Source of the DNA: Longilinea sp.
Lineage (GTDB): Bacteria; Chloroflexota; Anaerolineae; Anaerolineales; Anaerolineaceae
Direction: 5' to 3'
NCBI GenBank assembly: GCA_026645875.1
Contig: JAPKMQ010000004.1
Span: 1 to 37,573, forward strand
Length of the DNA: 37,573 nucleotides
Shown here: positions 8,368-37,573 of the stretch, one piece after another
How the letters are laid out: every line of letters begins with the position of its first letter
Position numbering within the stretch: the first letter of the stretch is position 1
Notes under the pieces: model-generated
The model's input: only the letters and a program-made list of their open reading frames with translations
Databases searched by the model: none
What the model was told of the DNA's origin: nothing
Program-made: the position numbers and the translations under genes

Positions 8368-9636
8368 TTACACCGTGTAAGGGATGGTTTGTGGGCCTTG
8401 AGGCAGCACGCATATGCGGGCTGGATGGGGCAGTTTTAGGATTTCCTGCGAAATCGTACCGGGAATGTCATGCGTTGGCTTCAGCAGGGCGCTGCAGATT
8501 TCTGCGTCAGAAAGGTGATCGCTGTATAGATAAACGCGTGCCCTCTGCAAAACCTGGGCCAGGATCTGGACCTGCCACTGATCTTGCATTCGAAATCCTG
8601 GAGTCATGATGGTTTTCAGGATACTCTCCGGGTTGTCAGCCTCTGCCAGAAATTGTTTAAAATGGCCGTGATCTGGAATGCCATCCCAGCAGGAGGCCGC
8701 CAAGCAGATCATACCGCCCGGGCGGACAATCCGACTGGCAGCGCTTAGCCCTTTTACTGCTTGGTATAAATTCAGGTCGAGTGGGTGGCCAGAATTGCCG
8801 GTGACGACAATGTCAAAGAGGCCGTCGACGGCAACCATCGCGGACTGGCGGACGAATTCCACTCCCACCGCATGGGCCAATTCCAGATCGCCGGCAAAGA
8901 CACCGGTGATTTCCTGACTGCGGTTGAGTGTTACATTAACCAGGAAGCTGGCGTTGGCTGTGCGGGCCACCTCACGGATTTCCTCCCAGATTGGGTTGCC
9001 GTGAGTGGAACCAAAGGTGGATTTTGGATGGGCAATATTGGCAGCGCAATGGTTGCCCAGGATCGTTTCCAAACCGGTCATGCCGGGCATGATGGCCTTG
9101 CCGCCGCCGGAATAGCCGGCAAAAAAATGCGGCTCAATAAAGCCCGTCAGGATCTTGACATCACAGTTCATCAAATCACGATTGATCCAGATCTTGTGAC
9201 CTTGCGAAGACTTACCCAGGTACGTCTGGGTTTCGCAATTAAAGGCATTGTTTTGGATGATTTTGAATTTCTCATAATTCTCAACACCCACCAGTTCAAT
9301 CAATTCCGGGTCAGACATCAATCGATGGGTGCCCAGGGCAATAAAAAGAAGTATGTTCTGTTTTGGCAAAAAAGACAAATGTTCTAACAATGCATCAAGG
9401 ATGAGCGCATTTGGGGTAGCGCGGGTCATATCGTTGAGGATGATCCCCACCGTGCTGTGAGGTTTGACCTTCTCCCGTAAGGCAGAGGTCCCAATCGGCT
9501 GCTCCAGCGCCGCGCCTAATTGGCGCAACGGCTCCGGTAGAGCGGGGGGGAAGGCCGGCTCAACCACCTGAGCGTTCCATGCGTCGGGCAGGTCAAGCGT
9601 CAGCTCCGTTTTTCCATAAGCAAGGTTTGCCCGCAT
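8368..9636 (-). CDS. LarA-like nickel-pincer racemase family protein (paralogue 1)
   Basis: A 422-residue member of the LarA/DUF2088 family. LarA interconverts lactate enantiomers with a nickel pincer nucleotide (NPN) covalently bound to lysine. The family residues are in place: D69 and R72 in LNDMTRATP, H104 in ALGTHR, H170 in GFIEPHFFAGYSGGGK, K180 (the NPN-attached lysine) and H196 in ILGNH. Spacing matches Lactobacillus plantarum LarA with a constant offset of about four. Many LarA homologues act on 2-hydroxyacids other than lactate, so the substrate is open. The cofactor genes larB, larC and larE are not in the window. It starts 2 nt after the recombinase stop codon; ATG with GGGGGAA upstream. 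Confidence 0.88.
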   Translation of the reverse strand: MRANLAYGKTELTLDLPDAWNAQVVEPAFPPALPEPLRQLGAALEQPIGTSALREKVKPHSTVGIILNDMTRATPNALILDALLEHLSFLPKQNILLFIALGTHRLMSDPELIELVGVENYEKFKIIQNNAFNCETQTYLGKSSQGHKIWINRDLMNCDVKILTGFIEPHFFAGYSGGGKAIMPGMTGLETILGNHCAANIAHPKSTFGSTHGNPIWEEIREVARTANASFLVNVTLNRSQEITGVFAGDLELAHAVGVEFVRQSAMVAVDGLFDIVVTGNSGHPLDLNLYQAVKGLSAASRIVRPGGMICLAASCWDGIPDHGHFKQFLAEADNPESILKTIMTPGFRMQDQWQVQILAQVLQRARVYLYSDHLSDAEICSALLKPTHDIPGTISQEILKLPHPARICVLPQGPQTIPYTV

Positions 9637-12354: not shown

Positions 12355-13620
12355 ATGCAATCGTTTTCCCTGGCATATGGTAAAGGCTGGCTGGATTTTT
12401 CTTTCCCTGATTCCATTCACGTGCAGCAGATCGCGCCTGGGTTTGTGCCCGGCGCTGTGGATCCTGCTGCCGAGGTCGAACGTGCTTTGGATCACCCCCT
12501 GGGCGGGATCAACCTGGATCAATTCCATAATGCCAAATCAGCCGCTATTGCGGTGAATGACAAAACCCGGCCGGTCCCCCTGCACCAGTTGCTGCCTCCC
12601 TTGGTCGCGCGCCTGGAACGAATGGGCATCTCTTCTGAAAATATCCGTTTCTATTTCGCGACCGGCACGCACACGCCCATGACGCCATCGGAAATGCGAT
12701 CGCTGCTCCCCCCTGCCCTGGCGGAACGGTATCCAGTGTACTCGCACGATTGCGACGATGTCGCCGGGTTGGTTGATCTGGGGAGGACCAGTTTTGGAAC
12801 GTCTGTTCTGTGTTCAGGTCATTTTTTGCAGAATGACCTTAAGATAGTTACCGGGAACATCGAACCGCACCATTTTGCCGGTTTTTCAGGCGGCGCGAAA
12901 ACCTTTTCAATCGGGTTAGCCGGCCGCGAAACAATCAACCGAAACCACAGTCTATTATTGGATTCGTGCTCCCATACGGGCGAATTTGATCACAATCCAC
13001 TCCGCCAGGAGATCGAAGAAATCGGCCGTCTGGCAAAAATCGATCTTGCCCTGAATGCTGTCCTTAATGAAAAGAAGGAAATCGTCAAAGCGTTCTTTGG
13101 GCCGCCATTCGACGTCATCCGGGCCGGCATCCCCATTGCCCGACAGGTTTGCCAGACGCCTGTGCGCGGTAGATATGACCTGGTGATCGCGTCGGTTGGC
13201 GGGCATCCCAAGGATATCAACCTGTACCAGGCGCAAAAGGCGCTCACGCACGCTTCCATGCTCACGCGCGACGGCGGCGTGGTGATTTTGGTAGGCGCCT
13301 GCCCTGAAGGCAGCGGCAGCCAGGGCTTCGAAGAGCTGATGACGTCAGCCGCCTCCCCGGCGGTTGTGCTAAAAAAATTCGACCGGGTAAATTTCCGGGT
13401 TGGCCCGCATAAAGCCTTCCAATTTGCACGTGAATTGGTACGCATCCGCGTGATTCTGGTTTCTGAACTGCCGGCAGAGCTGGTCCGGCGATTGTTTCTG
13501 ATCCCGGCCGGAACGCCGGTACAGGCCTTGGACGCGGCTTTCGAACTGCTTCCCGCGAATCCAACTATTGCAATCCTGCCGCGGGCGATCAATACTATTC
13601 CACTGATTGAATCTGTTTAA
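12355..13620 (+). CDS. LarA-like nickel-pincer racemase family protein (paralogue 2)
   Basis: A 421-residue LarA/DUF2088 protein, clearly diverged from the copy at 8368-9636 but with the same key residues: D69 and R72 (VNDKTRP), H106 (ATGTH), H172 (GNIEPHHFAGFSGGAK), K182 (predicted site of the nickel-pincer nucleotide) and H198 (INRNH). The region after the lysine differs between the copies (AIMPGMTGLE in copy 1, TFSIGLAGRE here), which suggests different substrates. It is followed after 14 nt by an alpha/beta hydrolase and then an MFS transporter, so an operon for uptake and processing of a hydroxyacid or its ester is conceivable. That link is inference. Confidence 0.87.
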   Translation: MQSFSLAYGKGWLDFSFPDSIHVQQIAPGFVPGAVDPAAEVERALDHPLGGINLDQFHNAKSAAIAVNDKTRPVPLHQLLPPLVARLERMGISSENIRFYFATGTHTPMTPSEMRSLLPPALAERYPVYSHDCDDVAGLVDLGRTSFGTSVLCSGHFLQNDLKIVTGNIEPHHFAGFSGGAKTFSIGLAGRETINRNHSLLLDSCSHTGEFDHNPLRQEIEEIGRLAKIDLALNAVLNEKKEIVKAFFGPPFDVIRAGIPIARQVCQTPVRGRYDLVIASVGGHPKDINLYQAQKALTHASMLTRDGGVVILVGACPEGSGSQGFEELMTSAASPAVVLKKFDRVNFRVGPHKAFQFARELVRIRVILVSELPAELVRRLFLIPAGTPVQALDAAFELLPANPTIAILPRAINTIPLIESV

Positions 13621-28565: not shown

Positions 28566-29177
28566 TTATCCTCGTAGGTGTTTTTTCTTCAGTTGTTGAT
28601 ATTCTTCAGGTGAATCCATGTCTTCAAGGATGCTGTCGTCGCGGATCAGCAGGTATTGAATATCCTCCTCATGGTTCGCCAGAAATATTTTCATACTGGC
28701 GTCGTTGGGCATGTCCAGAATTTCCTGAAAATGCCGCCTGTGCAATAGAATGGGATGGCCGCGCCGCATATTGTAACTCGGAATCAAGATACTGGCGTTT
28801 TGATTGGTAAATAGAGCAACCATATCAGTTATGGTCTGCACGGAAATGTGCGGTTGATCTCCCAAAAAGAGCATCGCGGCGTCGCATTGATGAATTGCCT
28901 CACGAATTCCCAGTTTGATGGAAAAAAACATTTCCAGGTTCTCATACTGGTCATTCAGAACCACCTGGATGCGATCAACAAATTGGGCAAGCTTTTCATT
29001 AAGCAGCGATTGATTCGCGCCTGTGACCACGATGACTGGTGATAATTCCATGTCAAGGACGTGCTGAAGCACCGTTTCGATGACGGAACTTGATCCCCAG
29101 GGAAGCAGCATTTTAGGCACGCCCATTCGGGTTGATTTTCCGGCAGCCAGGATAATTGCTGCGATTGCGGTACTCAA
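28566..29177 (-). CDS. MocA-like molybdenum cofactor nucleotidyltransferase
   Basis: A 203-residue nucleotidyltransferase of the MobA/MocA family. The nucleotide-binding N terminus reads IILAAGKSTRMGVPKMLLPW and the metal site is FLGDQPHIS; RRGHPILL and the C-terminal DMDSPEEY are also family features. MocA transfers CMP to molybdopterin, giving the cytosine dinucleotide cofactor and pyrophosphate. A TTG at 29177 is chosen as start: it gives MSTAIAAIILAAG, standard family length and a 4-nt gap to the upstream gene. Longer frames run into that gene. A second MocA domain sits in the fusion protein encoded just upstream. Confidence 0.82.
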   Translation of the reverse strand: MSTAIAAIILAAGKSTRMGVPKMLLPWGSSSVIETVLQHVLDMELSPVIVVTGANQSLLNEKLAQFVDRIQVVLNDQYENLEMFFSIKLGIREAIHQCDAAMLFLGDQPHISVQTITDMVALFTNQNASILIPSYNMRRGHPILLHRRHFQEILDMPNDASMKIFLANHEEDIQYLLIRDDSILEDMDSPEEYQQLKKKHLRG

Positions 29178-29181
29178 TGAG

Positions 29182-30504
29182 TTATTCCAATTCCAACAGG
29201 CGCGAATAGTCTTCGGGGGTATCCACGTCCAGAAGAATGCTGGCGTCATGCCACGGCACATACTCTACTGGGAATTTTGCAAAAATTCCCCGCCCACCCA
29301 CATCGCCCTGTAACTGCTCAAGGTCCTTGAAGGTGCTGCGGTCAAATAAAACCGGGTTGCCACGCCTGCCATCTACAAAAGGGGCAATCACTGCAGCGTG
29401 CGTGCAGGCGTGGTGGCTGATAAGCTCTTGTACCAGCCGCTCTGGTATCTGAGGTTGGTCACCCAGGAAGAACACCACCCCGCCTACTTCGCTGGGTAGA
29501 GATTTCACTCCCAGTCGGATCGAAGATGCCTGACCCTCTTGCCAGTTAGGGTTTGTTAATGTGGTCAAGTTAGGAGGTCTGGTAATATTAATTAATTGGC
29601 TATGCGCATTATTAAGAACAAGAACCGCCTGCGAAAAAGTGCATCTCGAGATGGTATCCAGGATATTGTCAATGAAACTCCTACCCCGCCAGGTCAAGCC
29701 CAATTTCGGCGCGCCGAACCGGGTTGATCCACCCGCTGCCAGGATTACGCTCGCGATGGGTTCGCACACATAAAGTACCTGGGCATTTTCATTTTCGGTC
29801 GCTAGCCGCGCAATCATCACGGCGTCGTAAGTCGGCAACAATTGATCCGCCAGCCGCCGGCCTGCTGATGCTAACCTCTCATCATCGGCCTGATTCAGGA
29901 AAAGCACCTTGCGGGAATGCTCTGGGATATTTTTCAAACCACCAGTGCTGCTACGCAGCACAGCCAGCAGATGATTCTCCCCCACCCTCTCGCCGGGCTG
30001 CAATCCTGAAAGACTGGCGAACCGGTCAGCATGATGGATATGTACATTATCACAGCTCGCGCCAAGCCCCGTCAACCCAGCCACGACCACCACCAAGTCC
30101 ACCCACGCCGGGATCACGGGTTCATGTTCGGCAGGCGCTTTAAGTGGCAGTTGCTTTGCGCCATCGGCTTCGATCAACAGACTCCAGCCCTTCTGCTGGC
30201 AAATTCCGTGTAACTGATCGAGTTGTTTCGCGGATAAGCCACCGACCTTTTCGCTTTCATCCGGTGCGCTGGTGATCACACTCACACCATTTGCCATCAG
30301 CTCCAGTTGACCCGAATCAGGCATCCCCACAATCCAGCGGTCGCCCCATGGCATTTGCCAGAGGCCCATGTGCGTGGTCGTGGTGACCACTACAGGGTGC
30401 TTCAGCGCCCGCGCCAACAGAAAAATACTCGTGGTCTTACCACCCGCGCCCACAAAAGCGGCCGCACAGGGCTCATTCAATCGCAAAGCCTTTTGAAGAT
30501 TCAC
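29182..30504 (-). CDS. yqeC: YqeC-MocA fusion for selenium-dependent molybdenum hydroxylase maturation
   Basis: A fused protein of about 440 residues. The N-terminal part is YqeC-like: the P-loop GAGGKTT lies at 25-31 when counted from the GTG at 30522, with TTTTHMG and EADGAK (118-123) downstream. YqeC is a marker protein of selenium-dependent molybdenum hydroxylase loci. From about residue 256 onward is a MocA nucleotidyltransferase domain (SVILAAGGSTRFGAPK, FFLGDQPQIP, RRGNPVLF, LDVDTPEDY). Two GTG starts are possible: 30522 without a clear Shine-Dalgarno, and 30504 with GGTG five bases upstream, which I prefer. The gene sits tightly after yqeB; the next gene starts 4 nt after its stop. 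Confidence 0.83.
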   Translation of the reverse strand: MNLQKALRLNEPCAAAFVGAGGKTTSIFLLARALKHPVVVTTTTHMGLWQMPWGDRWIVGMPDSGQLELMANGVSVITSAPDESEKVGGLSAKQLDQLHGICQQKGWSLLIEADGAKQLPLKAPAEHEPVIPAWVDLVVVVAGLTGLGASCDNVHIHHADRFASLSGLQPGERVGENHLLAVLRSSTGGLKNIPEHSRKVLFLNQADDERLASAGRRLADQLLPTYDAVMIARLATENENAQVLYVCEPIASVILAAGGSTRFGAPKLGLTWRGRSFIDNILDTISRCTFSQAVLVLNNAHSQLINITRPPNLTTLTNPNWQEGQASSIRLGVKSLPSEVGGVVFFLGDQPQIPERLVQELISHHACTHAAVIAPFVDGRRGNPVLFDRSTFKDLEQLQGDVGGRGIFAKFPVEYVPWHDASILLDVDTPEDYSRLLELE

Positions 30505-30508
30505 ATAC

Positions 30509-31327
30509 TCACCAGGAGCCACGCAACGGGCCGAATGATAAAATCGCCTCCAAAACCGCGCCGCCGATTGCCAGTGACTTATCCGAGACCAGGCGGCTAA
30601 TCAGCGGGTCATCTCTTGGATCTACATCGCCAATCTTAAGTTTCTGGCTGACCGTAAGCCCATCATGGACCAGTCCACGTATCACGCCAGAGAATGGTGC
30701 GCGAACCGCCGACGCGCCGATCCATCCAATTACGTCGCCAGCATCGACGTGCGTTCCAATGGATGCCGCTGAAATAAAAACACCATCCGCGTCAGCGCGC
30801 AAGACTCGCTCGCCGGTGAAACTGGCGACTTTCTCCGGAAGCCCAGAATCTGGTTCAGCAGAGCCGTTCCAAATCACCCGACCGAGAAAGGGGCCGCGTT
30901 TCGTCTCAATGACGGCGTGACAATTCCCGCCGCCCACAAATCCCGGTCCTAATCCAATCGAAAGCATTGCTGCCGGATGAGCCAACTCGGGAGCGGTTTT
31001 CAGCATGCGACCGTCGATTAATACATCCGGCGCAAACCATTCCATGGCACGTGCGCTCGGATCAACAATCACGGGAATGTTACCCCGGGATAATTCTACG
31101 AAAGTCTCCACCGGATTCGATACCCTCACGCCGTCTACTTCTTCGACCTGACACCGACTTGCGTAGACGGCTTCAGAAAACGAAACCAGTCGTCGGACGG
31201 TAAGCGGCGCTGGAAGTTCGCAAATGAGAACGTCCCAGCCGGCCCGGTGAAGCCGCAAGGCAACCCCGCTGGCCAAATCACCGCCGCCACGGATTAATAT
31301 TTTCAACTTCTTCGGTGCCGTCATCAT
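30509..31327 (-). CDS. yqeB: YqeB / EF2563-type selenium-dependent molybdenum hydroxylase accessory protein
   Basis: A 272-residue protein of the EF2563/YqeB family. The N terminus ILIRGGGDLASGVALRLHRAGWDVLICELPAPLTVRR is characteristic: a Rossmann-like start followed by the PxxVRR block. The middle has IGLGPGFVGGGNCHAVIETKRG, and the C-terminal part (DAGDVIGWIGASAVRAPFSGVIRGL) looks like a biotinyl-lipoyl-type beta barrel. The family co-occurs with selD and YqeC and is thought to help install the labile selenium ligand on the molybdenum centre; its biochemistry is not established. It starts 3 nt after the catalytic-subunit gene, with two possible ATGs (31327 and 31324). Confidence 0.87.
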   Translation of the reverse strand: MMTAPKKLKILIRGGGDLASGVALRLHRAGWDVLICELPAPLTVRRLVSFSEAVYASRCQVEEVDGVRVSNPVETFVELSRGNIPVIVDPSARAMEWFAPDVLIDGRMLKTAPELAHPAAMLSIGLGPGFVGGGNCHAVIETKRGPFLGRVIWNGSAEPDSGLPEKVASFTGERVLRADADGVFISAASIGTHVDAGDVIGWIGASAVRAPFSGVIRGLVHDGLTVSQKLKIGDVDPRDDPLISRLVSDKSLAIGGAVLEAILSFGPLRGSW

Positions 31328-31330
31328 TGC

Positions 31331-33541
31331 TCAGGAGGAGAGACCCTCCAAAACCCTTTCCGGGATTAATGGGAATTGATCAAACCAACAACCAGAGGCG
31401 TTATGCACGGCAGAAACCAATGCGGGCACAAAAGGAAGGTAAGGCATTTCACCCATGCCGCGCGCACCAAAAGGCCCAATGGGATCTGGGTATTCCAGGA
31501 TAACAGATTCAACCCGGGTAGGCACATCCAGAACGGTTGGAATCAGGTAGGTGGAAAGCGTTTTGGTCAGCGACAGCCCGTCTTTCTGTAAAAAGTTTTC
31601 CAGGATGCCGTAACCAGCTGCCTGAACCACAGCCCCCTCTATTTGCCCCTGCACCTGCTGCGGATTGACGGCTTTACCAACATCGTCCGCACAGATGACG
31701 TTGATCACCTGAAGCTGCCCGGTCTCAACATCCACCTCAACTTCAACCGCTTCAGCAACATACCCATATGAAAAATTCGGTTCGGATTTACCAGTTTCAG
31801 GATCGTACGGCGTTGTGCGCGGCGGCAGATACTGATAAGTAGCCACTGCGGGCCGTTCCTCGTTTTTCCACTTTTCCAGTGCCTGTGCGGCGGCGCCTCG
31901 AATGGAATTGCCCGCCATAAATGTCATTCGCGAGGCTGAAACGCTGCCCGAGTTGCGGGTATAAGCGGTATCCGAGGCCACCAGCACAATTTTCTCAAAC
32001 GGTAAGCCAAGCGCTTCAGCGGCCATCTGGATGAAGGCAGTGTGCGCCCCCTGCCCAACCTCCGCTCCGGCATGATACAAGATCGCTTGATCGATTTCCT
32101 CTTTCCCGCGTAACTCGATCGTCGCCCAGCAATTTTCCGGCGCGCCAAAAGAAAAGCCAACGTTCTTAAACGCACAGGCAAATCCAATTCCGCGCTTTTT
32201 GTTTGCCTGTTCCGGCTGATTCACTACCGGTCGCTGCCAACCACGCGCCCCGCGTACCCACCCGGCCTTGAGCGCGCATGCTTCCAACACCTTATCCATC
32301 GATACGCCTTTCGGCAACGGCGTGCCAACCGATAGCAGCGAACCCTCGCGGAGAATATTGCGCTCGCGTATCTCGACCGGATCCATGTCCAATGCTTCCG
32401 CCAACTTGTCCATCTGTAATTCTGCCGCGAACGCCCCCTGCGGTCCGCCGAACCCGCGGAATGCCCCGCCGGGGATGTTGTTGGTGTACACCGCGTAAGA
32501 ATCAACATTGACGTTAGGGATCTCATATGGCCCGGTACACATCAAGGTTGCATTTCCGAGGACCTTCGTGGAGGTGTACATATATGCGCCGCCGTCGGCG
32601 ATTAACTCAACTTCGGCCGCAGTAATTTTGCCATCACGAGAGGCACCCCACCGGGTGTGGATGTAGTATGCATGCCGCTTGTGATGCCCAATAATTGACT
32701 CCTCGCGACTCCAGACGATTTTTATCGGCCGGCGGATACCTTTCTGGGATAACCGGTAGGTTGCCAGGGCCAAAACAATTTGAACAGACATGTCTTCGCG
32801 GCCACCAAATGCGCCGCCAATTGCCGGATAAATCACCCGGATTTTTTCGAGCGGCAAACCTAGTGCGTGTGCGATTTGCTCCTGATCTTCATGGACCCAC
32901 TGCCCGGCTACGACCACGGTGATGCGATCTTCCTCATCGAGGTAACTCACGCCGGCTTCCGGCTGTAAATAAGCATGCTCCTGGACAGGCGTCTGGTAAT
33001 ACCCTTCTACGATCACATCCGCGTTCTTGAAACCGTTTTCGATGCTACCCTTGCGGATGCGGTAATGGCCAAACACATTTGAGTCACGATCCGGGAATAA
33101 TCGAGGCGACTGGACTTTCATTGCTTCCCGTGGGTCAGAAACAACCGGTAAATCCGCATAATCCACGTCAATCAAGGAAATCGCCTGAACAGCAATGGCT
33201 TCACTTTCGGCAACCACCAACGCCACCTGATCGCCGATAAAACGGACATGATCTGCGTGCGCTTTGTTTGACCCTGGGCCGCACAGGACAGGTTGATCGG
33301 GTGAAATCAGTCCGTATTCGTTGTTGGGCACATCTTTGGCGGTAAAAACGGCAAGCACGCCAGGAAGCTGTTCAGCCCTGGAAACGTCAATTCTTTGAAT
33401 GATGGCATGGGGGCGGTTGGCAAACAATATCTTCATGTAAGCCATATCCGGCATTTCTATATCGCCAGGGTAAACCGCCTTCCCCTTTACCTTAGCCTCT
33501 GCATCCACGCGAATGAGCGATTGTCCAACAGTAAGGGTCAT
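31331..33541 (-). CDS. Molybdenum hydroxylase catalytic (molybdopterin-binding) subunit, xanthine dehydrogenase family
   Basis: A 736-residue large subunit of the xanthine oxidase family. Active-site residues can be placed: Q214 (AGQW, beside the Mo oxo/sulfido group), GGAFGGRED (242-250, with E249 at the substrate-binding glutamate position), FRGFGGPQ with R362, and E698 in GARGMGEMP, the catalytic base. Both the hammerhead N-terminal domain (1-125) and the Mo-binding domains are complete. The family hydroxylates purines, nicotinate, aldehydes and other heterocycles; the substrate here is open. Neighbouring yqeB and yqeC suggest a selenium-containing centre. ATG at 33541 with GAGG upstream; yqeB begins 3 nt after the stop. 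Confidence 0.92.
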   Translation of the reverse strand: MTLTVGQSLIRVDAEAKVKGKAVYPGDIEMPDMAYMKILFANRPHAIIQRIDVSRAEQLPGVLAVFTAKDVPNNEYGLISPDQPVLCGPGSNKAHADHVRFIGDQVALVVAESEAIAVQAISLIDVDYADLPVVSDPREAMKVQSPRLFPDRDSNVFGHYRIRKGSIENGFKNADVIVEGYYQTPVQEHAYLQPEAGVSYLDEEDRITVVVAGQWVHEDQEQIAHALGLPLEKIRVIYPAIGGAFGGREDMSVQIVLALATYRLSQKGIRRPIKIVWSREESIIGHHKRHAYYIHTRWGASRDGKITAAEVELIADGGAYMYTSTKVLGNATLMCTGPYEIPNVNVDSYAVYTNNIPGGAFRGFGGPQGAFAAELQMDKLAEALDMDPVEIRERNILREGSLLSVGTPLPKGVSMDKVLEACALKAGWVRGARGWQRPVVNQPEQANKKRGIGFACAFKNVGFSFGAPENCWATIELRGKEEIDQAILYHAGAEVGQGAHTAFIQMAAEALGLPFEKIVLVASDTAYTRNSGSVSASRMTFMAGNSIRGAAAQALEKWKNEERPAVATYQYLPPRTTPYDPETGKSEPNFSYGYVAEAVEVEVDVETGQLQVINVICADDVGKAVNPQQVQGQIEGAVVQAAGYGILENFLQKDGLSLTKTLSTYLIPTVLDVPTRVESVILEYPDPIGPFGARGMGEMPYLPFVPALVSAVHNASGCWFDQFPLIPERVLEGLSS

Positions 33542-33571
33542 ACCGCCTCTCGTTGCTTATGGTAAATCACT

Positions 33572-33943
33572 TTATCGGCTCTTTTTCGGTCCTTTATAAG
33601 CGATAGGAGGAACATCCAAGGGCCCATAGCGTGATGGGCCAAAAACACTGTAAAGGATAAAAGTGATCAATCGAAAAAATGCATTGACGACCACGAAAAT
33701 CACCAGACCAACGATGATTTTCACATACAAATTTGGATCGCCAACGCCCTTTGCGATCAGGTCTTTGGGAATTTGAACCCAACCCTGCGTGGCATTCGCT
33801 TCAACCAGCGCGATTGCACCAAACACCGCAATAACGGTTGTCAGGATGAGTAAAACAAAACCAACGCCGCGCCAGATGGGATGGGCCTGCCGGTTTCGAT
33901 CCCGCAAAGGTTCTTGAACCATACGGCCGGAATACTTTCCCAT
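33572..33943 (-). CDS. Small two-helix membrane protein of unknown function in the Mo-hydroxylase operon
   Basis: A 123-residue protein that I do not recognise. Two hydrophobic helices are clear: about 26-48 (VGFVLLILTTVIAVFGAIALVEA) and about 73-98 (VKIIVGLVIFVVVNAFFRLITF). Both termini are basic and hydrophilic (MGKYSGRMVQEPLRDRNRQ; AYKGPKKSR) and should lie on the same, cytoplasmic side. It starts 3 nt after the FAD/FeS subunit gene with a strong Shine-Dalgarno (AAGGAGGA) and precedes the catalytic subunit gene by 30 nt, so it is made with the enzyme. A membrane anchor or redox tether is plausible, but there are no cysteine or heme motifs. Confidence 0.75.
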   Translation of the reverse strand: MGKYSGRMVQEPLRDRNRQAHPIWRGVGFVLLILTTVIAVFGAIALVEANATQGWVQIPKDLIAKGVGDPNLYVKIIVGLVIFVVVNAFFRLITFILYSVFGPSRYGPLDVPPIAYKGPKKSR

Positions 33944-33946
33944 ATT

Positions 33947-35368
33947 TCATCCTCCTTCTTGGTGATGAGCCGCTCTGTCAATAGCTTCGACAATCTTATA
34001 ATAACCCGTGCACCGGCATAGATTGCCGGTGATCGCCTGTTGAATTTCATTTTTGGTAGGGTTTTCACGTTCCTCAAGCAATTTCGCCGCTGACATTACA
34101 AACCCGGGGGTGCAATAACCGCATTGCACCGCGCCCGCTTCGATAAATGCCTGCTGAACGGGATGTAATTCACCTTCGCCAGAAATTCCCTCAATGGTGA
34201 CGATCTCAGCGTTGTGTGCGCGAGGTGCGGGCACCATACAGGCCATCACCGCTACGCCATCCAGGTAAACCGTGCAGGCACCGCATTCGCCTTCGGCGCA
34301 GCCTTCCTTAGTCCCCACAAGATGGGCATCTTCTCGAAGCAAGCGCAGAAGCGTTTTATCCTGACCGGTTGAAAATTCATACGGGATGCCGTTGATGCGG
34401 GTGGCAATGCGTCCGCCGCCGATTATCGTGCTAGATGGGGTTGGCTCTTCAACAATGTGGTTGGATTTTCCCCAAAGAAGGATGGGAGCAGCTGGAAGAT
34501 CAGCCTTTTCGGAGCGAGCAGCCAGGGATTGCAGCCCTCGGCGCATCATTACACGCACCATGCTTTCCCGGTACGTTTTTGAACTGCGCACGTCAGAAAT
34601 GGGCCTGGCAGCCTGCTGCGTCATCTCAGCCGCCGTTTCGATCACGTCCTGCAACAGGGCTTGACCGATCAGATACTTCTCAGCCGCCACGGCATGAATG
34701 ATCGTCGGGGCCACAGCGCCCAAAGTAATGCTGGCCGAGCTGATCTTGTCCTGATCAAAGGACAAGATCAAGGTGATATTGAGCAATGAAATGGCTTGTG
34801 CCCGGCGAAGGGCATATTTGATAAATGTGCCACGCTGGTTCATTTTTAAGGCCGGGAACGAAATATCTGTGAGCAATTCGTCTTCCGCCATCACAGTTTT
34901 GCGAACGCCGGTATAAAAATCCTGCAAGGCCACTTCGCGGCTGCCCCGTGCCGAGACAAGCGTCACCTGGGCGCCCAGTGCCATCAACGGAGAGATTGTG
35001 TCATTGGCGGGCGATGCCGTGATTAAATTCCCAGCTACCGTACCGCGGTTGCGGATTTGCGGCGAGCCCACTTCCCAGGCTGCCCGAACTAACGGGTAGG
35101 CATACTCCCTGAGCAGCGCCGATGCAACACAATGATTGTGGGTCACATTGGCACCGAGGTGGATCCAACCGTCCTCATCCAAAGAAATAATGTCCAGGCC
35201 GGGGATCCGGCTGATATCCACCAGTGTTTCGATGCCTTTACGGACACCGCGTTCCATTTCCAGGATCAAATCGGTGGCTCCGGCCACTACTCTAGCAGAT
35301 GCCTTCTTTTGACTCAACACATTGACCACTTCATCAATTGAAGAGGCGTTCACATATTGTTTCCACAT
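33947..35368 (-). CDS. Fused FAD-binding and [2Fe-2S] subunit of the molybdenum hydroxylase (FAD domain first)
   Basis: A 473-residue fusion of the medium and small subunits. Residues 1-285 are the FAD-binding domain (VVAGATDL at 27-34; GSPQIRNRGTVAGNLITASP at 101-120). After a linker, residues 315-473 are the iron-sulfur subunit: plant-type ferredoxin cysteines C357, C362, C365, C377 and the second-cluster set C416, C419, C451, C453 (QCGYCTPG, CRCTGYY). All eight ligands are present. In most fused xanthine dehydrogenases the iron-sulfur domain comes first; here the order is reversed. Electrons would pass from Mo via both clusters to FAD. ATG at 35368 with GGAAGC upstream; the gene is 9 nt from the XdhC gene. 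Confidence 0.92.
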   Translation of the reverse strand: MWKQYVNASSIDEVVNVLSQKKASARVVAGATDLILEMERGVRKGIETLVDISRIPGLDIISLDEDGWIHLGANVTHNHCVASALLREYAYPLVRAAWEVGSPQIRNRGTVAGNLITASPANDTISPLMALGAQVTLVSARGSREVALQDFYTGVRKTVMAEDELLTDISFPALKMNQRGTFIKYALRRAQAISLLNITLILSFDQDKISSASITLGAVAPTIIHAVAAEKYLIGQALLQDVIETAAEMTQQAARPISDVRSSKTYRESMVRVMMRRGLQSLAARSEKADLPAAPILLWGKSNHIVEEPTPSSTIIGGGRIATRINGIPYEFSTGQDKTLLRLLREDAHLVGTKEGCAEGECGACTVYLDGVAVMACMVPAPRAHNAEIVTIEGISGEGELHPVQQAFIEAGAVQCGYCTPGFVMSAAKLLEERENPTKNEIQQAITGNLCRCTGYYKIVEAIDRAAHHQEGG

Positions 35369-35377
35369 AAGTGCTTC

Positions 35378-36175
35378 CTATTCCTTCATACTCTTGCCAC
35401 TGGCGTCGCGCCGCAGCATGAGTATTTCTGCGAGTATGCTGACCGCGATTTCTTCAGGGGTTTCAGCCTGCAACTCCAGTCCGATAGGCGAGTGAATACG
35501 GCTAATCACTTGCTCGGGAACCCCAGCATCCAATAAACCCTGCCTTGTTGTCAACCAGCGCTTGCGCGATCCGATGATGCCGATATAGCCAGGTTCGCAT
35601 TTGCGCAATAAATCCGGCAGACCGGCAATATCCACGTTTGCGCCGCGCGTCGTCAGGACGATGGAAGTGAACGCGTTAATCTCAATGTGATCCGGCAAAG
35701 CCCCCATCGGGATGTTGAGCAGCACATCCGCGTCTGGATTCATCTCGGGCGTGGTAAATTCCGATCGGTCATCACACACCACCACCCGGTATTCCAACCA
35801 CTTCGCCAGGTGCGCGACAGCTTTGCCCACATGTCCCCCACCGATAATGATCATGGATGGGGCTGGAAGAATTGGCTCGATATAGATTTCCATGGTTCCG
35901 CCGCAGATACCTGGATCCCCTCGCTTAGGGTCAACCATCGAATAGGTCAGCCTGCGCGTTTTTCCATCCTTCAATGAGGTTACCGCCTCTTGAATGACAC
36001 GATTTTCAATTTCACCGCCACCAACGCTTCCGGTAAATTTACCATCCGGATATACGACCATTTTACTGCCAACATGGCGCGGCGTTGAACCGTGACTTTC
36101 TATGATCGTGCAAAGCGCAGCAGCGCGGTATTGCGCTGTAAAGTCAGCCAGGAGTTGCCAGATTGACTCTTTCAT
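35378..36175 (-). CDS. XdhC/CoxI family molybdenum cofactor maturation factor
   Basis: A 265-residue protein of the XdhC/CoxI family, which binds molybdenum cofactor, aids its sulfuration and inserts it into xanthine-dehydrogenase-type enzymes. The N-terminal XdhC_CoxI domain reads IIESHGSTPRHVGSKMVV and SVGGGEIE, then GICGGTMEIYIEP. The C-terminal Rossmann domain starts SMIIIGGGHVGKAVAHLAKWLEYRVVVCDDR, with GIIGSRKRW and IHSPIGLELQAETPEEIAVSI at the end. Its start codon overlaps the stop of the pyrophosphatase gene by 4 nt. Its position before the structural genes agrees with a maturation role. Confidence 0.9.
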   Translation of the reverse strand: MKESIWQLLADFTAQYRAAALCTIIESHGSTPRHVGSKMVVYPDGKFTGSVGGGEIENRVIQEAVTSLKDGKTRRLTYSMVDPKRGDPGICGGTMEIYIEPILPAPSMIIIGGGHVGKAVAHLAKWLEYRVVVCDDRSEFTTPEMNPDADVLLNIPMGALPDHIEINAFTSIVLTTRGANVDIAGLPDLLRKCEPGYIGIIGSRKRWLTTRQGLLDAGVPEQVISRIHSPIGLELQAETPEEIAVSILAEILMLRRDASGKSMKE

Positions 36176-37518
36176 CGTTCCAATAATCCCAGTACCACCG
36201 GCAATAATTGTTTCTTGCGTGAAACCACCCCTTCCGCTAGCCGGGTACCATCGGTTTGCGGAGGATACGGCAAGTCCTCAAGCACTGGAGGTTGGTTGGC
36301 GACCAGCAACCGACTGGAACCGCGAACTACATCCGTTACCATCAACATCGCGAAATCCAATCCTTTTTGTTCCCGTAAATCTTCCAGGGCCCGATTCAAC
36401 GGAACCAGTCGCTCGCTGACTTCATAAAGATCGCTGACTTCAGCCTGGGCAACCGCGAACTGGTAGTCGCCAGACCGATAGATTTTCATATCGCTGGAAA
36501 CCACATCACGAGGCTCCCGCGTGCCAAGACCGGCGCTGGCTGATAGCACCTTTTCACCATACGATCGGATCGTCTCTCCAGCCAGCGCGCTTCCGCCTAC
36601 AAACGCCCACCTTGAAAGCCGTTCCGCAGCGGTATGATCCCGGTCGGTAGTGGTTGGCGAGGTTAAAATCAAGGTATCCGAAAGCAGTCCAGCCAACATT
36701 AAGCCAGCGAGGTTTGGAGGAGCGGACAAACCAGCATCTTCGATACGCTCAGAAACCAGCGTACTGGTGCTGCCAACGATGTCCACCGTGAAACGGATCG
36801 GCGTGCGGGTGGATGGGTTGCCCAGACGGTGGTGATCCAGAATTTCCAACAGATCGGCCTCATCCAACGACCCAACCGCCTGCGAGGTTTCGTTGTGGTC
36901 CACCAGAACAATCCGGATGCGGGGCGGATTGAGAAGATCGCGCTGCCGGCAAACGCCCACATAACGACCGGCATCATCCGTCACGATGAACTCATCGCCT
37001 TCCTCGCGCAAAATCCGGTTGAGAACATCGCGGATCCGCGTAGACGATTGAAAGCGGGCAACTTTTGTATTCGCCGCCCGATGACACGGGAAGTCGAGGA
37101 TGTCGCTGATTTTGGCATCCTGTTGCTTAATATGCGGACCAACCAGGTGGAAGAGGAAATCGAACAGGCTGCGCCCGTTGACCAGACCAAATGGCGTGCC
37201 ATCCGCATTCACCAACGGAGCAATCCCGCCGGTGCGAGAGGCCACGGACCAGGCGTCCCGCAGTGGCTTGTCCGGCAGGGTTGTGTCGTACCTGCGCATG
37301 ACCGACTCAAAGCGTGGAGACGCATCATTCAGCAGCAACGGCGCATCCAGCCCCAGGTGTTTCAGCACCCAGGATGTTTGCGCGTTGACCGCCCCGGCGC
37401 GGGCAGCGATCGTGTCCATCCCATCGCGCTCGCGTAAAACCCAGGCATAGCCCATCGCGGAAGCAATCGAGTCCGTATCCGGATTCACATGGCCGATCAC
37501 ATAGACAGGTGCTTGCAT
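36172..37518 (-). CDS. ppaC: Family II (Mn-dependent) inorganic pyrophosphatase with CBS domains
   Basis: A 448-residue DHH-superfamily enzyme that hydrolyses pyrophosphate. Metal ligands are visible: H10, D14, D16 (GHVNPDTDS), D207 (LVDHNE), H229 in the DHH motif (228-230) and D281 (LLSDTLIL). The C-terminal DHHA2 domain ends with SRKKQLLPVV (substrate-binding RKK). About residues 68-200 hold a CBS pair inserted in the DHH domain, as in CBS-PPases regulated by adenine nucleotides. The ATG at 37518 is preferred to the frame start at 37545: AAGGA lies 8 nt upstream and the conserved N terminus begins at once. It is the first visible gene of the Mo-hydroxylase operon, 4-nt overlapped with xdhC. 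Confidence 0.92.
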   Translation of the reverse strand: MQAPVYVIGHVNPDTDSIASAMGYAWVLRERDGMDTIAARAGAVNAQTSWVLKHLGLDAPLLLNDASPRFESVMRRYDTTLPDKPLRDAWSVASRTGGIAPLVNADGTPFGLVNGRSLFDFLFHLVGPHIKQQDAKISDILDFPCHRAANTKVARFQSSTRIRDVLNRILREEGDEFIVTDDAGRYVGVCRQRDLLNPPRIRIVLVDHNETSQAVGSLDEADLLEILDHHRLGNPSTRTPIRFTVDIVGSTSTLVSERIEDAGLSAPPNLAGLMLAGLLSDTLILTSPTTTDRDHTAAERLSRWAFVGGSALAGETIRSYGEKVLSASAGLGTREPRDVVSSDMKIYRSGDYQFAVAQAEVSDLYEVSERLVPLNRALEDLREQKGLDFAMLMVTDVVRGSSRLLVANQPPVLEDLPYPPQTDGTRLAEGVVSRKKQLLPVVLGLLER

Positions 37519-37573
37519 CAGTGTCCTTCTATCCTCATGGAGCAAAAATCTTTCTATAATTGATTGATTGCCC

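Follow-up and report, generated by a model that had tools for sequence, protein, structure and literature searches.

The window, the whole 37,573-nucleotide stretch of Longilinea sp. DNA analysed here, contains a same-strand run of genes in the order CBS-DHH, XdhC, FAD-FeS, membrane gene, Mo, YqeB, YqeC-MocA, MocA and aminotransferase. The FAD/FeS gene (33947-35368, reverse strand) encodes a 473-aa fusion subunit (PF00941, PF03450, PF00111, PF01799), with FAD at the N-terminus and [2Fe-2S] at the C-terminus, whose cluster motifs C357/C362/C365 and C416/C419 are intact. The Mo gene (31331-33541, reverse strand) encodes the 736-aa molybdopterin (catalytic) subunit (PF02738, PF20256, PF01315), in which the GGAFGG, GGAFRG and GMGE motifs are likewise intact. 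With Mo-pterin, two [2Fe-2S] and FAD domains all present, the pair is assigned by domain content to a Mo hydroxylase of the xanthine-oxidase family. The best PDB matches of the two subunits are nicotinate dehydrogenase (3hrd), 4-hydroxybenzoyl-CoA reductase (1rm6) and xanthine dehydrogenase (1jro). The FAD-then-FeS order of the fusion reverses that of the XdhA small subunit, and its FeS residues 337-468 match the start of 1jro_A. Purification and modelling have treated Mo hydroxylases of the xanthine-dehydrogenase type as soluble. None of the PDB matches listed includes a named membrane subunit, and inspection of both window subunits by eye revealed no export signal.

Also on the reverse strand are genes encoding a XdhC-type maturation factor (35378-36175; PF13478, PF02625), YqeB (30509-31327; TIGR03309 above cut-off, 285 bits), a marker of selenium-dependent Mo hydroxylase maturation, a YqeC-MocA-like fusion (29182-30522; TIGR03172 above cut-off, PF19842, PF12804) and a second MocA-like nucleotidyltransferase (28566-29261; PF12804, with TIGR03310 slightly below cut-off at 168.5 bits). 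Upstream of XdhC, a position kept in many relatives, lies a gene for a CBS-DHH-DHHA2 Mn-dependent inorganic pyrophosphatase-like protein (36172-37545, reverse strand; PF01368, PF02833, PF00571). YqeB and YqeC have been proposed as markers of selenium-dependent Mo hydroxylases, according to the accessible part of that report (PMC2276186). SelD is encoded elsewhere in the window's genome (L161, G000:C68:300-1235; 352 bits) and, given an in-frame TGA, is probably itself a selenoprotein. Taken together, YqeB, YqeC and SelD suggest that the window's Mo hydroxylase system is probably selenium-dependent. In many relatives (L052, L055-L058 and others), a second, distant Mo hydroxylase of about 31-36% identity is encoded upstream of XdhC.

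Between the two subunit genes lies an ATG-initiated ORF (33572-33943, reverse strand) encoding a 123-aa integral membrane protein with two predicted helices (residues 22-53 and 72-101). The ORF begins 3 nt after the TGA that closes the FAD/FeS gene, has its AGGAGG ribosome-binding site (AAGGAGGATGAAATATG, 33951-33956, reverse strand) within the end of that gene, and is followed after 30 nt by the start of the Mo subunit gene. The first-pass annotation had described this ORF, its position between the subunit genes, the 3-nt spacing and a strong ribosome site, all of which were confirmed. Compared with L002, the nearest relative, with which it shares 89% aa identity, the ORF shows 55 synonymous and 14 non-synonymous codon differences, with 65 of 82 base changes at third codon positions; compared with Longilinea arvoryzae (L003), 48 codon differences are synonymous and 35 non-synonymous. 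Since the changes in both comparisons are mostly synonymous or at third positions, the ORF appears to be under coding selection. The closest named relatives are Longilinea. The FAD/FeS, membrane and Mo genes of the window share one reading frame across 31331-35368, with only stops between them. An in-frame arrangement of the FAD/FeS and membrane genes is not general, as only 13 of 84 relative loci passed the in-frame test.

The 123-aa protein could be placed in no Pfam or NCBIfam family; matches to Pfam EI24 and Colicin_V were far below cut-offs and were rejected. A Pfam search of 87 relatives (alignment A2) gave three hits, each in one member, and no family. PDB sequence and fold searches returned nothing credible (best Foldseek E 7.4), and no relatives were found in a scan of viral contigs. 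AlphaFold2, run with the 87 sequences, predicts a helical hairpin (mean pLDDT 83.9) in which helices 22-53 and 72-101 reach pLDDT of about 85-98 and the ends are less certain. The net charge averaged over the 87 homologues is +2.6 at the N-terminus, +0.2 in the loop and +4.5 at the C-terminus, a bias from which both ends are predicted to be cytoplasmic. A motif HP[IV]WRG[IV]G precedes helix 1, a W...P pair lies in the loop, and the basic tail carries GPxRYGPxDxPP. Conserved residues (H21, P22, W24-G26, G28, W55, P59, D110 and the proline-rich tail) are mostly at the membrane edges and in the tails, with little sequence conservation beyond the HPIWRGIG start and the GPxRYGPxDxPP tail. In two relatives the gene has apparently been duplicated internally to give two hairpins (L043:5904-6560, 218 aa; L046:5791-6420, 209 aa).

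The first-pass annotation had asked whether homologues neighbour Mo hydroxylase genes, and the answer is strongly positive. A context-blind scan of an 84,980-species genome collection with one sequence motif gave 138 relatives, from which 80 named-genome loci were kept; the FAD/FeS gene is directly upstream on the same strand in 79 of them. The remaining locus, L124 (identical with L034), has a membrane homologue without neighbouring enzyme genes. Within 300 nt downstream of the membrane gene, the 79 linked loci carry a Mo gene (54), DUF6909 (9) or EamA (2), while in the remainder the next recognised gene is farther away (8), the locus ends (3) or no gene was seen (3). With membrane-gene starts chosen by rule, the gap from the FAD/FeS stop is -20 to +24 nt in 77 of 84 loci, and the genes overlap in 35 of 84. 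The maturation genes XdhC, YqeB, YqeC and MocA vary among loci, while the FAD/FeS neighbour stays fixed. In deeper branches, DUF6909 (PF21850) separates the membrane gene from the Mo subunit gene (L031:2881-4590, L043:4197-5900, L044:1888-3633, L046:6420-8126 and others); the window's genome contains DUF6909 pieces on other contigs.

Across 101 relatives, including the window's genome, a membrane homologue is present in 69 and the FAD/FeS subunit in 80; both are found in 64, the membrane gene alone in 5, the FAD/FeS gene alone in 16 and neither in 16 (Fisher P 2.8e-6, a value that ignores ancestry). By locus reading or coordinate comparison, the genes are side by side in 60 of the 64 co-occurring genomes. 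The other four comprise G058, where they are split over contigs, and G057, G070 and G086, where the two genes are apart; the unlinked homologues score 145 bits in G086 and 40 bits in G070. Of the five membrane-only genomes, G068 has an adjoining truncated FAD/FeS gene; in G061, G075 and G088, which belong to one family, the homologue is weak and lies next to a gene judged NERD-like by eye; and the fifth, G095, was left out of the locus reading. In two FAD/FeS-only genomes, G063 and G076, the slot proved to contain a divergent gene for a two-helix protein, which the first search had missed. In the remaining 14, the FAD/FeS gene is directly followed by the Mo gene, and a profile search of these genomes (E 0.01) found no copy of the membrane gene elsewhere. 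Weak homologues away from the enzyme occur at L039, L042, L050 and L049; at L042 (4628-6315), L050 and L039 these distant relatives sit beside a NERD-like gene, representing the family without the enzyme.

Family hits were obtained only within the order Anaerolineales (23 of 297 genomes in a class sample and 14 of 201 in a phylum sample); the FAD/FeS subunit is found class-wide in Anaerolineae (173 of 249 genomes). Outside the order, the slot is occupied in a number of enzyme clusters by a protein with two helices and about 95-160 aa, and in others it is not. These slot proteins were compared by hhalign with a family profile built from the 87 sequences of A2 and five divergent in-order members, giving 96.7% for group A (9 sequences) and 83.1% for group B (4 sequences). 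Reversed controls gave 24.4 and 1.1, 20 block-shuffles of each reached at most 62.2% and 15.5%, respectively, and six EamA windows reached at most 0.5%. Group A is therefore likely to be homologous to the family, and homology of group B is possible. An earlier tree of the FAD/FeS subunit held too few gene-lacking loci and was replaced by one built on the Mo subunit from 103 distinct loci, excluding those in which this subunit is incomplete or missing. Presence or absence was scored by a hydropathy rule, with three states set by hand: 67 in-order loci have the membrane gene and 10 lack it, and outside the order 7 have it, 14 lack it and 5 are unclear. Parsimony requires 12 changes on this tree, against a mean of 21.6 and a minimum of 15 in 300 label shuffles. 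The membrane gene is inherited, yet has been lost or gained repeatedly, and it is therefore dispensable for catalysis.

We propose that the membrane gene product is a putative tether that holds a cytoplasmic, probably selenium-dependent, xanthine-oxidase-family enzyme at the inner face of the membrane, a reading to which we give somewhat more belief than doubt. It is the best reading because a dispensable hairpin is locked to the FAD/FeS gene. Enzyme clusters lacking the gene in several clades fit a tether rather than a catalytic part, and this repeated absence implies that the enzyme works without the membrane protein. The anchoring role raised in the first-pass annotation thus stands in part: the linkage in 79 of 80 loci, the tight or overlapping spacing, the two-helix fold and the occupation of the same slot outside the order speak for it, and the few unlinked homologues, the many clusters without the gene and unordered tails in a read-through model speak against it.

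In the proposed arrangement, the conserved HPIWRGIG start and GPxRYGPxDxPP tail would act as docking sites. The docking partner would most likely be the FAD/FeS subunit, since this is the near-invariant neighbour even where DUF6909 or EamA separates the Mo subunit. Co-translation may provide matched amounts of membrane protein and enzyme. The protein carries no recognisable redox centre of its own, and the membrane site would probably serve closeness to a non-menaquinone partner, either a transporter or a ferredoxin/NADH complex. Contact was approached with a read-through fold, in which the FAD/FeS subunit and the membrane protein were modelled as a pseudo co-fold. Both folds were kept (pTM 0.77), with the tails at pLDDT of about 40 and 14 of 65 alignment rows covering the membrane part; in the membrane protein folded alone, the C-terminal tail has pLDDT 67-72. 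The model gave no indication of contact and does not speak against it. A mixed alignment (A3) was not used, as its membrane-only rows were seemingly misplaced, with near-invariant columns in the FAD part. When clusters having the membrane gene were compared with those lacking it (FAD/FeS, 95 against 16; Mo, 64 against 10), the enzyme residues showed no clean patch; Mo-subunit residues 397-414 form a loose grouping for which ancestry is a confounder.

A precedent is provided by CoxG, which, in the accessible part of PMC11962113, recruits the Mo-CO dehydrogenase of Oligotropha, a xanthine-oxidase-family enzyme, to the membrane; the same part of that source describes CoxG-like proteins that anchor archaeal glycerol-3-phosphate dehydrogenase. 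Both CoxG, whose membrane-holding role is shown there (PMC11962113), and the window protein are small proteins encoded with a soluble dehydrogenase. Unlike CoxG, the window protein is predicted to consist of two helices and short tails with no globular domain, and Pfam detected no CoxG/SRPBCC domain in it (E up to 1) or across the 87 A2 sequences (E up to 0.001). By analogy, the best reading is that the protein resembles CoxG in its proposed role and is unrelated to it in sequence. If the tether reading holds, this is a new protein family in a known kind of role. A literature search, mostly outside subscription journals, returned no paper on the membrane gene or its DUF6909 neighbour and no text joining Anaerolineales with molybdenum hydroxylase, and no title or abstract opening pointed to such a membrane subunit. 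A dedicated, unannotated membrane partner would, if true, alter the place and coupling of the enzyme in abundant, poorly understood anaerobes, and a named gene with natural pairs of species having and lacking it makes the idea testable. More tentatively, and with clearly less confidence than in the tether itself, we suggest that an unnamed two-helix family across Anaerolineae makes a selenium-type Mo hydroxylase membrane-bound in seemingly menaquinone-less hosts, with a non-quinone partner for electrons or substrate.

Alternatively, the protein might be a membrane-bound assembly or maturation helper, acting in Mo/Se cofactor insertion or subunit assembly and absent from the finished enzyme. 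The cluster is rich in maturation genes (XdhC, YqeB, YqeC, MocA) and many lineages do without the membrane gene, as a helper would allow; we nevertheless consider this unlikely, as the gene is fixed beside FAD/FeS while the maturation genes come and go, and no step in Moco maturation is known to require a two-helix membrane protein. It is more doubtful still that the protein is a scaffold keeping the enzyme at a transporter for substrate channelling, for example of purines or other N-heterocycles: an EamA-type transporter gene is next in some loci, but in most loci, the window included, no transporter is seen. We give equally little credence to an unrelated passenger whose gene is translationally coupled and kept by descent. 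Homologues that are weak or stand apart from enzyme clusters speak for it, as do the many clusters that lack the gene. Against it, the linkage spans many families and includes gene overlaps, and beyond the order the same slot is filled by divergent relatives.

The tether could also hand electrons to the quinone pool, as the first-pass annotation had suggested; this part of its proposal is not supported by the genomes. Among 26 genomes, none had a MenD hit above cut-off and two had one for MqnA/D (PF02621), both weak at 29 and 38 bits; in 14 control genomes, MenD was above cut-off in 7 and PF02621 in 4. Neither marker was found in the window's genome (G000) or in Longilinea arvoryzae (G002), and a menaquinone link for the window's genome is unlikely, although the genomes may be incomplete (completeness is 90.6% for G000) and other routes may exist. 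Small helical membrane partners of flavin/FeS or Mo enzymes, of the SdhC/D and NarI type, carry a bis-His heme. The window protein differs from succinate dehydrogenase C/D and NarI in having a sole conserved His, located at the edge of the membrane, and neither sequence nor fold searches gave a match. Across the 87 sequences there is no conserved His pair or Cys, and H21 is the sole His conserved in at least 60%; with one His and no Cys conserved, no bis-His heme pattern is present. Later CoxG work has reportedly shown quinone delivery. Despite the predicted membrane location and the recruitment of the aerobic Mo-CO dehydrogenase by CoxG (accessible part of PMC11962113), a quinone-linked anchor is the least probable of the readings considered. 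Elsewhere in the window are two lactate-racemase-like (LarA) genes, at 8368-9636 and 12355-13620.
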